Of a DNA stretch of 64,000 nt, positions 38,586 through 45,804 are shown piece after piece (position 1 is the stretch's first letter; each line of letters starts with the position of its first letter). The notes beneath the pieces were generated by a model. That model was not told where the DNA came from, did no database searches, and was given only the letters and a program-made list of their open reading frames with translations. Position numbers and translations under genes: made by a program. The DNA comes from Mesoterricola sediminis (GTDB lineage Bacteria; Acidobacteriota; Holophagae; Holophagales; Holophagaceae): positions 3,269,001 to 3,333,000 of the forward strand of contig NZ_AP027081.1 of NCBI RefSeq assembly GCF_030295425.1, in the 5' to 3' direction.

Positions 38586-39677
38586 ATGACCCCCCTTCCC
38601 CCCGAATCCGCCCTCGACCTCGAGACCCTCGAACTCCTGCCCTACGGCGTCATCGTGCTCGACGCCCGGGGCGCCGTCCTCTTCTACAACAAGCGGGAGG
38701 AGGAGATCTCGGGCCTGGCCCGGCGGCAGGTGCTCGGGCGGGACTTCTTCCGGGAGGTGGCCCCCTGCGCCCAGGTGCGGGATTTCCAGGGCCGGTTCCG
38801 GGAGCTCATGGAGGCGGGCCGGGGCCGGGTGGACTTCGACTTCACGTTCCCCTTCGTGCTGGGCCCCCGCCGGGTGCGGATCACCCTCCAGGCCTTCCAG
38901 AAGGACGCGGAGGCCTGCTGCATCGTCTTCGTGGCCGACATCACGGGCCGGGAGGCGCTGCGGGACCAGCTCCTCCAGGCCCAGCGCTTCAGCGAGCTGG
39001 GGGAGGTCACCGCCGAGGTGGCCCACAACTTCAACAACATCCTCCAGACCATCCGCCTCTCCGTGGAGCTGGCCTCGGCCTCCGCCGGCCCCCAGGCCAG
39101 GGCCCGCCTGGACCGCGCCCTCGCCGCGGCCGAGGACGGGTCGGCCCTGGTGAAGCGCTGCCTGGACATCGCGCGCAAGGAGCCCCGCAGCCCCCTGGAG
39201 CCCGTGGACCTGAACGCCGTGGCCGAGGCCACCGCCGAATTCTCCGAGCCCTTCCTGCGCACGGCCCGCGCGGAGGGCCGGGAGGTCACCCTGCGCCTCA
39301 ACCTCGCCCCGGGCCCCCTCACCGTCCTGGGCGACGCGGTCGAACTCCGGGAGGCCGTGCTCAACCTCCTCCGCAACGCCATCGAGGCCATTCCCGGGCG
39401 CGGCACCGTCCGCCTCCTCACCGAGGGCTCCGGCGAGGCGCACCGCCTCCACGTCCTCGACGACGGGCCCGGCATGGGGCCGGAGGTCCTGGAGAAGGTC
39501 TTCACGCCCCTGTTCACCACCAAGGGCGAGCGGGGCACGGGCCTGGGCCTGGCCAGCGTCCACGCCATCGCCCGGCGCCACGCCGGCGCCGTCGAAATGA
39601 CCTCGAGCCCCGGCAAGGGCACCCACGTCCTCCTCACCTTCCCCCAGGCCGCCCCCGACGGCGGCGTCCGGCCGTAA
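38586..39677 (+). CDS. Histidine kinase with a photoactive-yellow-protein-like PAS sensor
   Basis: 363 aa, soluble. Residues 10-120 align without gaps to photoactive yellow protein (PYP). They retain Y34, E38 and S42 (PYP Tyr42, Glu46, Thr50) and C61 in REVAPC (PYP Cys69, the p-coumarate attachment site); PYP Arg52 is Leu. The kinase follows with H147 in AEVAHNFNNILQ, the N box LLRNAIEAIP, DDGPGMGPE and GTGLGLASV. The start at 38586 has GGGAG upstream; a longer frame adds a low-complexity tail. No response regulator adjoins; 46 bp downstream is a cytochrome b/molybdopterin fusion gene. Light, redox or ligand sensing are all possible. Confidence 0.85.
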   Translation: MTPLPPESALDLETLELLPYGVIVLDARGAVLFYNKREEEISGLARRQVLGRDFFREVAPCAQVRDFQGRFRELMEAGRGRVDFDFTFPFVLGPRRVRITLQAFQKDAEACCIVFVADITGREALRDQLLQAQRFSELGEVTAEVAHNFNNILQTIRLSVELASASAGPQARARLDRALAAAEDGSALVKRCLDIARKEPRSPLEPVDLNAVAEATAEFSEPFLRTARAEGREVTLRLNLAPGPLTVLGDAVELREAVLNLLRNAIEAIPGRGTVRLLTEGSGEAHRLHVLDDGPGMGPEVLEKVFTPLFTTKGERGTGLGLASVHAIARRHAGAVEMTSSPGKGTHVLLTFPQAAPDGGVRP

Positions 39678-39723: not shown

Positions 39724-41217
39724 ATGTCCGTCGAACACCTGACCTACCCGCTTTGGCTGCGGACGGCCCACTGGCTGAACGTGCTTTTCCTCTCCCTCCT
39801 CGCCCGGAGCGGGCTGGAGATCCTCAGCGCCCATCCGAAGCTGTACTGGAACGACGACTGCCGGCTCGGCAGCGAGTGGCTGGCCATCCGTCCCCGCCCC
39901 ACCCCCCCGGGGGAGCTCTTCACCGCCGACGACCAGGAGCAGGACTGGCATTCCCTGGTCGCCCTGCCGGGCCACCGGCATTGGGACCTGGGCCGCCACT
40001 GGCACTTCGCCGCCGTCCCCCTCTGGATCCTCACGGGGGCGGCCTACCTGGCCCTGCTCTTCGGCACCGGCGAATGGCGGCGCCTCGTGCCCACCTCCTG
40101 GGACGTGCTCCCCGGCGCCTGGCACACCCTGGTCGCCTACCTGCACTTCCGGATCCCCGACCCGGCCGGGACCCACAACCCCCTCCAGCAGCTCACCTAC
40201 TTCGCCGTCGTCTTCGGCCTGGCCCCCCTCTCCATCGCCACGGGCGCGGCCATGTCCCCGGCGGTGGCCGCCCGCTTCCCGGGCTACCTCCGGCTGTTCG
40301 GGGGGCGCCAGGCGGCCAGGAGCCTGCACTTCCTCTCCCTCCTCGCCTTCACCGCCTTCTCCCTCGTCCACGTGGCCATGGTGGCCGCGCACGGCCTGGG
40401 CCGGGAGCTGGCCCTCATGGTGCTCGGCCAGGTCCGGGAGCCGGACCTGGCCCGGGCCCTGGCCCTGGGCGGGGCGCTGATCGGCGGGATCGTCCTCGTC
40501 CACGTGGCCGCCACCCGCTTCACCTTGCGCCGCCCGGACCTCGTCCAGGACGCCGCCGAGCGGTTCGTGGACCCGGTCCGGCGGGCCCTCCTCGGCCGCC
40601 TCAAGTCCGTCCAGGCCTACGACCCGGGCCGGATCTCCCCCTACCTGTGGGTGAACGGCCGCCCCCCGGCGGAGCCCGACTGGCTGGCCCTCGCCGAGGG
40701 GGGGTTCCAGGACTACGTCCTCGAGGTGGGGGGCCTGGTGGAACGGCCCCTGCGCCTGAGCCTGGCCGACCTGCGGGCCCTGCCGGCCCGCACCCAGGTC
40801 ACCCTGCACGTGTGCATCCAGGGATGGTCCGGCTTCGCGGCCTGGACCGGCGTGGGCCTGGACACCCTCATGGACCTGTGCCGCCCCCTGCCCGGGGCCC
40901 GGGACGTGGTCTTCCGGGCCTTCGACGACAAGGGGCGCTCGGAGCCCCGCCCCAAGGCCTCCGGCTTCTACTACGGCACCGTGCCGATGGAGATGGCCCG
41001 CCACCCCCAGACCCTCCTCGCCTACGACCTGAACGGGGCGCCCCTCCCCCGGGAGCACGGGGCGCCCCTGCGGCTGCGCCTCGAGACCCAGTACGGCTTC
41101 ACCATGGTGAAGTACATCCGGGCCATCGAGTTCGTGGCGTCCTTCCGGGAGGTGGGGAAGGGCCGGGGCGGCTGGCCCGAGGACAACCTCTACCGGAGCC
41201 GGGAGGCCTCCCTCTGA
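39724..41217 (+). CDS. Cytochrome b-type membrane domain fused to a sulfite-oxidase-like molybdopterin domain
   Basis: 497 aa. The N-terminal half (about 1-270) resembles Ni/Fe-hydrogenase or formate-dehydrogenase cytochrome b subunits. It has four or five membrane helices with heme-ligand histidines (LRTAHWLNVLF, GRHWHFAAVPL, HTLVAYLHFRI, HFLSLLAFTAF, SLVHVAMVAAHG). The C-terminal half (about 320-490) is an oxidoreductase molybdopterin-binding domain like MsrP/YedY, with the likely molybdenum-binding C364 in HVCIQGWSGFAAWTG. In MsrPQ these are two proteins; here one chain would pass quinone electrons to the active site. Without a Tat or other signal peptide the location of the catalytic domain is unclear. 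It follows the PYP-like kinase. Confidence 0.8.
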   Translation: MSVEHLTYPLWLRTAHWLNVLFLSLLARSGLEILSAHPKLYWNDDCRLGSEWLAIRPRPTPPGELFTADDQEQDWHSLVALPGHRHWDLGRHWHFAAVPLWILTGAAYLALLFGTGEWRRLVPTSWDVLPGAWHTLVAYLHFRIPDPAGTHNPLQQLTYFAVVFGLAPLSIATGAAMSPAVAARFPGYLRLFGGRQAARSLHFLSLLAFTAFSLVHVAMVAAHGLGRELALMVLGQVREPDLARALALGGALIGGIVLVHVAATRFTLRRPDLVQDAAERFVDPVRRALLGRLKSVQAYDPGRISPYLWVNGRPPAEPDWLALAEGGFQDYVLEVGGLVERPLRLSLADLRALPARTQVTLHVCIQGWSGFAAWTGVGLDTLMDLCRPLPGARDVVFRAFDDKGRSEPRPKASGFYYGTVPMEMARHPQTLLAYDLNGAPLPREHGAPLRLRLETQYGFTMVKYIRAIEFVASFREVGKGRGGWPEDNLYRSREASL

Positions 41218-44880: not shown

Positions 44881-45804
44881 ATGAGCACGATCCGGGTCCT
44901 TGCCGCAGACGACGATCCAGCCACACTCACCTTCCTCGTGAGGGCGCTGACCCGTGCGGGCATGGAGACCGTGGCCGCCGGGGACGGGGCGGAGGCCCTG
45001 GCCCACCTGCGGAAGAACCCCGAGTCCTTCGACGTCCTCCTGCTGGACCTGGCCATGCCCCGCATGGACGGCTGGCAAGTCCTCCGGAAAGTGAAGGCCA
45101 GCCCGCGCCTGCGCCAGATCCCCGTGGTCCTCCAGACCGTCTCCGACCGGCCCGAGGACATGAAGCGGGGCCTGGAGGGCGGCGCCTACTACTACCTCAC
45201 CAAGCCCTTCACCCAGCGGGTGCTCCTGCGCATCGTCCGGGCCGCGGCCCACGACGTGGCCACCTACCGGGTGCTCCACGCCGAGGTCGCCCGGGCCACC
45301 TCCCCCCTGGCCATGCTCACCCGGGGCACCTTCCGCTACCGCACCCTGCCGGAGTGCCACGAGCTCACCCACCTGCTGGCCCGGGCCTGCCCCGACCCCG
45401 CCCGCATCGTCACCGGCCTTTCCGAACTCCTCATCAACGCCCTGGAGCACGGCAACCTGGGCATCTCGTACAAGGAGAAGGGGGACCTATTGGAGCGGAA
45501 TGTCTGGAAGGCCGAGGTGGCCCGCCGCCAGGCCCTGCCCGAGCACCGCGACAAGTGGGTGGAGGTGTCCGTGGAGCGCCTGGAGGACCGGATCCGGTTC
45601 GAGGTGAAGGACATGGGCGAAGGCTTCGACTGGCGGGCCTTCCTCGTCCCCGACGCCGCGCGCCTCTTCGACAACCACGGCCGGGGCATCTTCATGGCGA
45701 AGATGGACAGCTTCGATCACCTGGAATACCGCGGCAACGGCAACCACGCCATCGCCGAGGTCCATTTCCAGGCCGGGTCCGGAATCCACAGGAAGGATGA
45801 ATAG
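44881..45804 (+). CDS. Response regulator fused to an RsbW/SpoIIAB-like ATPase domain
   Basis: 307 aa. The receiver domain (4-122) has D10-D12, phospho-acceptor D56 (LLLDLAMPRMDGW) and the lysine of YYLTKPF. After a short linker comes an ATPase domain (about 150-300) of the anti-sigma type: N box ELLINALEHGNLG, glycine box KDMGEGFD and HGRGIFMAK. It has no kinase histidine and no DNA-binding domain. A stand-alone histidine-kinase-like output would suit phosphorylation-controlled anti-sigma or partner-switching activity; this is inference. It lies 27 bp after the zinc-ribbon gene. Confidence 0.82.
   Translation: MSTIRVLAADDDPATLTFLVRALTRAGMETVAAGDGAEALAHLRKNPESFDVLLLDLAMPRMDGWQVLRKVKASPRLRQIPVVLQTVSDRPEDMKRGLEGGAYYYLTKPFTQRVLLRIVRAAAHDVATYRVLHAEVARATSPLAMLTRGTFRYRTLPECHELTHLLARACPDPARIVTGLSELLINALEHGNLGISYKEKGDLLERNVWKAEVARRQALPEHRDKWVEVSVERLEDRIRFEVKDMGEGFDWRAFLVPDAARLFDNHGRGIFMAKMDSFDHLEYRGNGNHAIAEVHFQAGSGIHRKDE

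Follow-up and report, generated by a model that had tools for sequence, protein, structure and literature searches.

The fusion of a photoactive yellow protein (PYP) to a histidine kinase is an already known type. It is represented by Ppr of Rhodospirillum centenum, a PYP-phytochrome-histidine kinase, and by 15 short PYP-histidine kinases (PYP-HKs) reported in a 2025 survey (Dohmen et al. 2025, PMC12826048), none of which is described as characterised in the text of that survey. PYP itself is known from Acidobacteriota (PMC9664959, PMC12826048). Apo-PYP requires p-coumaroyl-CoA, and tyrosine ammonia-lyase (TAL) was found in 5% of the pyp operons surveyed, with uptake suggested (PMC12826048). 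p-Coumarate and 4-coumaroyl-CoA are also made in flexirubin biosynthesis, as shown for FlxA and FlxY of Chitinophaga pinensis, FlxA having a HAL-like motif 1 and a TAL-like motif 2 (PMC3992019). The dye source of PYPs without a neighbouring TAL and their signalling targets are questions in the field. Here we describe a PYP-HK encoded in a 64,000-nucleotide stretch of the genome of Mesoterricola sediminis (contig NZ_AP027081.1), hereafter the window.

The PYP-HK gene of the window has GGGAG just 5' of its ATG and a third-position G+C of 0.97, and its product (P0001) is laid out as a PYP domain, a DIT linker, HisKA and HATPase (Table 1). Pfam placed PAS at residues 15-109, HisKA at 138-199 and HATPase_c at 249-355. 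Its sequence shows no apparent membrane segment, which points to a soluble protein. The same architecture was found in two further proteins, one at the same locus in a genome of the same genus (G004; 54% identity) and one in a distant Acidobacteriota MAG (L069; 39% identity).

Table 1. Features of the PYP-histidine kinase gene and nearby genes, in window coordinates
Feature	Position	Strand	Basis and remarks
PYP-histidine kinase gene (P0001)	38586..39677	+	ORF; ATG at 38586, stop ending 39677, 363 aa
PYP domain, residues 1-~119	38586..38942	+	phmmer, AlphaFold model, VIA
Tyr34 codon (= PYP Tyr42)	38685..38687	+	alignment
Glu38 codon (= PYP Glu46)	38697..38699	+	alignment
Cys61 codon (= PYP chromophore Cys69)	38766..38768	+	alignment
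DIT-type signalling linker, Asp118 to phospho-acceptor His147	38937..39026	+	gapless alignments
HisKA dimerisation/phospho-acceptor domain; H-box AHNFNN, His147	38997..39182	+	Pfam HisKA 27.3 bits, cut-off 26.9
HATPase_c; N (NLLRNA), G1 (DDGPGM), F (FTPLFTTK) and G2 (GTGLGL) boxes	39330..39650	+	Pfam 82.9 bits
Cytochrome b561-molybdopterin oxidoreductase fusion	39724..41217	+	Pfam; 46 bp downstream of the kinase gene
Nearest response regulator, beyond lepA; receiver + RsbW-like ATPase tail (by reading)	44881..45804	+	synteny

In a phmmer search against all PDB sequences, the PYP of Ppr (1mzu) was the top match of the window domain (E 7e-18), and PYPs alone filled the ranking down to 1.6e-13; the best non-PYP matches were encapsulins (E 0.0055), and the best true PAS domain was that of RpfR (E 0.027). 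Residues 15-102 aligned without a gap to residues 28-115 of Ppr-PYP, and residues 11-102 aligned to the PYP of Halorhodospira halophila, a protein approximately 36% identical. Against TIGR02373, the photo_yellow equivalog model, P0001 scored 87.6 bits, below the cut-off of 143.05 bits, which was reached by none of the 396 acidobacterial genomes. This model is reported to match just 20% of PYPs (PMC9664959).

A tree was built from a thinned set of 66 PYP domains, and four ordinary PAS domains from the M. sediminis genome served as the outgroup. The window domain and those of the two other PYP-HKs formed one clade (89/99) inside the PYP ingroup (87/87), both supports being moderate; with just 130 columns and very long branches for the four outgroup domains, the tree does not fix the exact placement inside PYP. 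The branch to the PYP-HK clade is fairly long, at 1.1 changes per column. For the AlphaFold model of the PYP domain (pLDDT 83.9), Foldseek ranks 1-40 were all PYP or PYP-derived. The VIA Z scores of the model were 16.6 to PYP 1gsv (2.4 A, 117 residues) and 16.4 to 1mzu_B, compared with 12.6 to the best other PAS domain, a result biased somewhat towards PYP by the input alignment of the model, which consisted of PYP relatives. Of the features given for PYPs by Xing et al. 2022, the window domain shows Cys69, Tyr42, Glu46, the nine-residue p-coumarate pocket and a closer relation to PYPs than to other PAS domains. Together, these data indicate that the window domain belongs to the PYP family by sequence, tree and fold, and the same comparisons rule out a chance similarity or an ordinary PAS domain. 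The original prediction had claimed a gapless alignment to PYP, which held over residues 15-102, and had named a profile search placing the domain nearer to ordinary PAS families as grounds for refutation; the search placed it nearest to PYPs.

The nine pocket residues known from the literature (Ile31, Tyr42, Glu46, Phe62, Val66, Ala67, Pro68, Cys69 and Phe96) are all present in the window domain and in the domains of the other two PYP-HKs, which are just 58% and 45% identical to it. Every one of 105 aligned PYP domains had cysteine in the column of Cys61, in a collection chosen by a pattern adjoining that cysteine. A position of Cys61 inside the pocket, the lack of which had been the other ground for refutation named in the original prediction, is suggested by the gapless alignment and the fold match. 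The residue assignments made beforehand, Y34 as Tyr42, E38 as Glu46, S42 as Thr50 and C61 as Cys69, were correct by alignment, and Arg52 is indeed lost, as had been stated, its place being taken by L44. However, the consensus of 984 PYPs has Leu at position 52 and Ala at position 50 (PMC12826048). The loss of Arg52 therefore carries little weight, and it was dropped as an argument against photochemistry. Position 47 (Glu) and position 88 are altered, and Trp119 is not conserved. A second cysteine, Cys112 (codon 38919-38921), stands in the same column in all three PYP-HKs (P0001, P0002 and P0004) and equals PYP residue 118 or 120 depending on the alignment.

The sensor-kinase part of P0001 is complete, with the phospho-acceptor His and the N, G1, F and G2 boxes all intact. 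Its nearest solved kinase core is that of ZraS (E 7.6e-28) and its nearest kinase models are AtoS/ZraS, which assign it by sequence to the NtrB-like class, in agreement with the soluble NtrB-like kinase originally proposed. The linker from Asp118 to His147 showed no gap among the three PYP-HKs, nor against 9p6i or ThkA (3a0r), a PAS kinase of known structure in which the spacing to the phospho-acceptor His is identical. Thus, the PYP core is joined to the kinase like an ordinary PAS domain and lacks the phytochrome module found in Ppr. Neither a PHY domain nor a Photo_RC match was found in the complete genome, and both a phytochrome partner and photosynthesis were therefore ruled out for M. 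sediminis, which fits the non-phototrophic host presumed at the outset.

No TAL or ligase gene was found beside the kinase gene. The original prediction had said as much for the window and had offered as one alternative that the cofactor genes lie elsewhere, for which a genome search now supplies a concrete candidate. Two MIO-family lyases are encoded in the complete 4.52-Mb genome. The first is HutH, scoring 626 bits, over the cut-off, and bearing the Glu motif KEDHVSMG. The second (L045 8122-9657, minus strand) has the TAL/PAL Gln at motif 2 (NQDKVSMG) and the MIO triad ASGDL; it scored best to the BagA/FevW TAL model (387 bits, cut-off 1000), with 294 bits to FlxA (cut-off 700), and stayed below the HutH cut-off. 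Its motif 1 is Tyr-His by alignment, without His at the first position, and because of this and the scores against the curated FlxA and BagA/FevW models we call it TAL-like. Its best PDB match was 2o78/2o6y, which we take to be the TAL of R. sphaeroides. For the AMP ligase directly upstream of this lyase, the best NCBIfam model by far was TIGR02372 (133 bits, cut-off 335), which describes the 4-coumarate ligase of the PYP pathway, and neither enzyme passes a curated cut-off. The pair lies at 770000-789000 of the genome (L045), 2.5 Mb from the kinase gene, among genes for an acyl carrier protein, a ketosynthase, a LolA-like protein and an MMPL-type exporter, a make-up that we presume to be that of an aryl-polyene/flexirubin-type cluster.

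A pigment cluster of this kind, with an adjoining TAL-like lyase and coumarate-ligase-like enzyme, is kept in at least four of the six genomes of the genus; an internal stop that appeared to interrupt the lyase of G004 sits upstream of the lyase start. The enzyme pair occurs in the kinase-bearing members and also in G001 and G003, which have no kinase. Co-occurrence is thus not supported as proof of supply, and the link between this pair and the kinase is no more than plausible. The MAG with the third PYP-HK has a HAL-type lyase only.

From these comparisons, a light-sensing p-coumarate chromophore in the kinase is plausible though unproven, and we regard it as rather probable that P0001 is a soluble blue-light-sensing histidine kinase carrying p-coumarate on Cys61, with the dye coming from enzymes of the pigment cluster. 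The dye would be attached to Cys61 by a thioester and held by Tyr34 and Glu38, its source being the p-coumaroyl thioester formed by the TAL-like lyase and the adjoining ligase of the aryl-polyene cluster. On illumination, the dye would isomerise and the PYP domain loosen; the DIT linker, which has the usual length for a PAS kinase, would relay this change and so alter autophosphorylation at His147. By analogy with established PAS-kinase work, we infer that the signal would be transferred by helix movement. More tentatively, and with some doubt, the chromophore may be borrowed from the aryl-polyene pathway as such, the same TAL and ligase supplying a blue-light sensor as well as a light-absorbing pigment in a bacterium of a non-phototrophic and facultatively anaerobic type, where the kinase might control pigment production. 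Within one open-access library, no paper mentions PYP in combination with aryl polyenes, with Geothrix or with zinc ribbons.

Within its own genus, the kinase gene is present in two of six genomes, that of the window (G000) and G004, in both of which the locus reads response regulator, lepA, peptidase, kinase and M28 peptidase. G001 has the equivalent locus without the kinase, everything else being retained. The gene is therefore vertically kept but losable (or gained), and the comparison of the three loci gave no sign of recent mobility. The response regulator nearest to the kinase was rejected as its cognate partner, because it is also present in relatives without the kinase. In G004 (L047 8945-9502 and 10318-11835), an ECF sigma gene is divergent from the kinase gene, and the kinase is separated from the M28 peptidase by an ORF that resembles reverse transcriptases of the group II intron type; the ECF sigma was rejected as a specific partner, being present in G001. 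The gene downstream of the kinase in the window encodes a b561 membrane domain and a sulfite-oxidase-type molybdopterin domain in one protein.

This downstream gene bears on a different reading, in which the PYP fold is kept and the thiol redox state or an electrophile is sensed through Cys61, possibly with Cys112, making P0001 a redox kinase of a facultative anaerobe. A cytochrome b561/molybdoenzyme neighbour would suit such a role but is missing by synteny from the sister locus in G004, and while redox sensing has been proposed for methylobacterial Ppr-PYPs (PMC9664959), those proteins lost Cys69 and Tyr42, whereas the window domain keeps Tyr42, Glu46 and the whole pocket, which redox sensing would not need. 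Even with Cys112 common to the three PYP-HKs and seldom matched elsewhere among PYPs (4 of 54 rows), we consider redox sensing unlikely.

PYPs are found in other Acidobacteriota as well. Of the 80 closest loci in the genome collection, the short form joining PYP to HisKA was seen in L069 only. Most of the rest were single-domain PYPs, and the long ones that were examined included forms linked to phytochrome, V4R or EAL. Further fusions (L174 and L182; L073, L059, L134 and L180) were EAL-PYP, a c-di-GMP phosphodiesterase form, and PYP-V4R, with V4R recognised by Pfam in L073 and L180 and by similarity in L059 and L134. In genus g4 (Holophagaceae, probably Geothrix), part of the genomes encode short PYPs. 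Proteins of approximately 150 aa (L051-L058, L060-L065, L067, L095, L106 and L116) consist there of an N-terminal zinc-ribbon-like motif, CxWC...HSHGICxxC, and, after it, a PYP domain in which Tyr42, Glu46 and Cys69 are intact. The 2025 survey of PYPs does not list such an arrangement and makes no mention of zinc.

The sole MIO-family lyase in the genomes of these g4 proteins is of the HutH type. Intact PYPs in genomes with HutH-type lyases only, like the uptake suggested in the 2025 survey, would fit a photoreceptor that obtains its dye or precursor from outside, such as plant-derived p-coumarate in soil, and has it activated by a general CoA ligase, with the pigment-cluster enzymes uninvolved; the M. 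sediminis genome, however, holds its own TAL-like lyase and ligase pair, and we find this origin of the dye unlikely for P0001. A derived apo-domain that binds no covalent dye, and acts as a relay like an ordinary PAS domain or as a sensor of a small ligand, would accord with the long PYP-HK branch, the changes at 47 and 88 and the lack of Trp119, but is very improbable given that the three members, at 45-58% identity, each keep the full set of nine pocket residues.

If P0001 is indeed a blue-light-sensing kinase, blue-light sensing would be extended to soil and sediment Acidobacteriota, and a small one-piece light-switchable kinase would be at hand. Sensor and output are here one soluble protein for which the likely dye enzymes have been identified, and a comparison is possible, within one genus, between orthologous loci that have the kinase and those that lack it. 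The PYP of H. halophila shares with the window domain the fold, the nine-residue pocket and Tyr42, Glu46 and Cys69; different from P0001, it is a single domain whose operon includes a TAL and a ligase of its own. The L045 pair resembles FlxA and FlxY of C. pinensis in joining a TAL to a 4-coumarate-CoA ligase in an aryl-polyene-type cluster, and we treat the lyase as a relative of FlxA rather than an assigned member because of its score against that model. Ppr contains the nearest solved PYP, likewise has Ser at position 50 and likewise drives a histidine kinase, but it belongs to a phototroph and its PYP and kinase are separated by a bacteriophytochrome module, whereas P0001 joins the two directly. 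The short PYP-HKs of the 2025 survey are like P0001 in having the N-terminal PYP directly before HisKA/HATPase and in keeping Cys69. Their members are unnamed in its text, and P0001, a new uncharacterised member of the PYP-kinase fusion type, may be among them.
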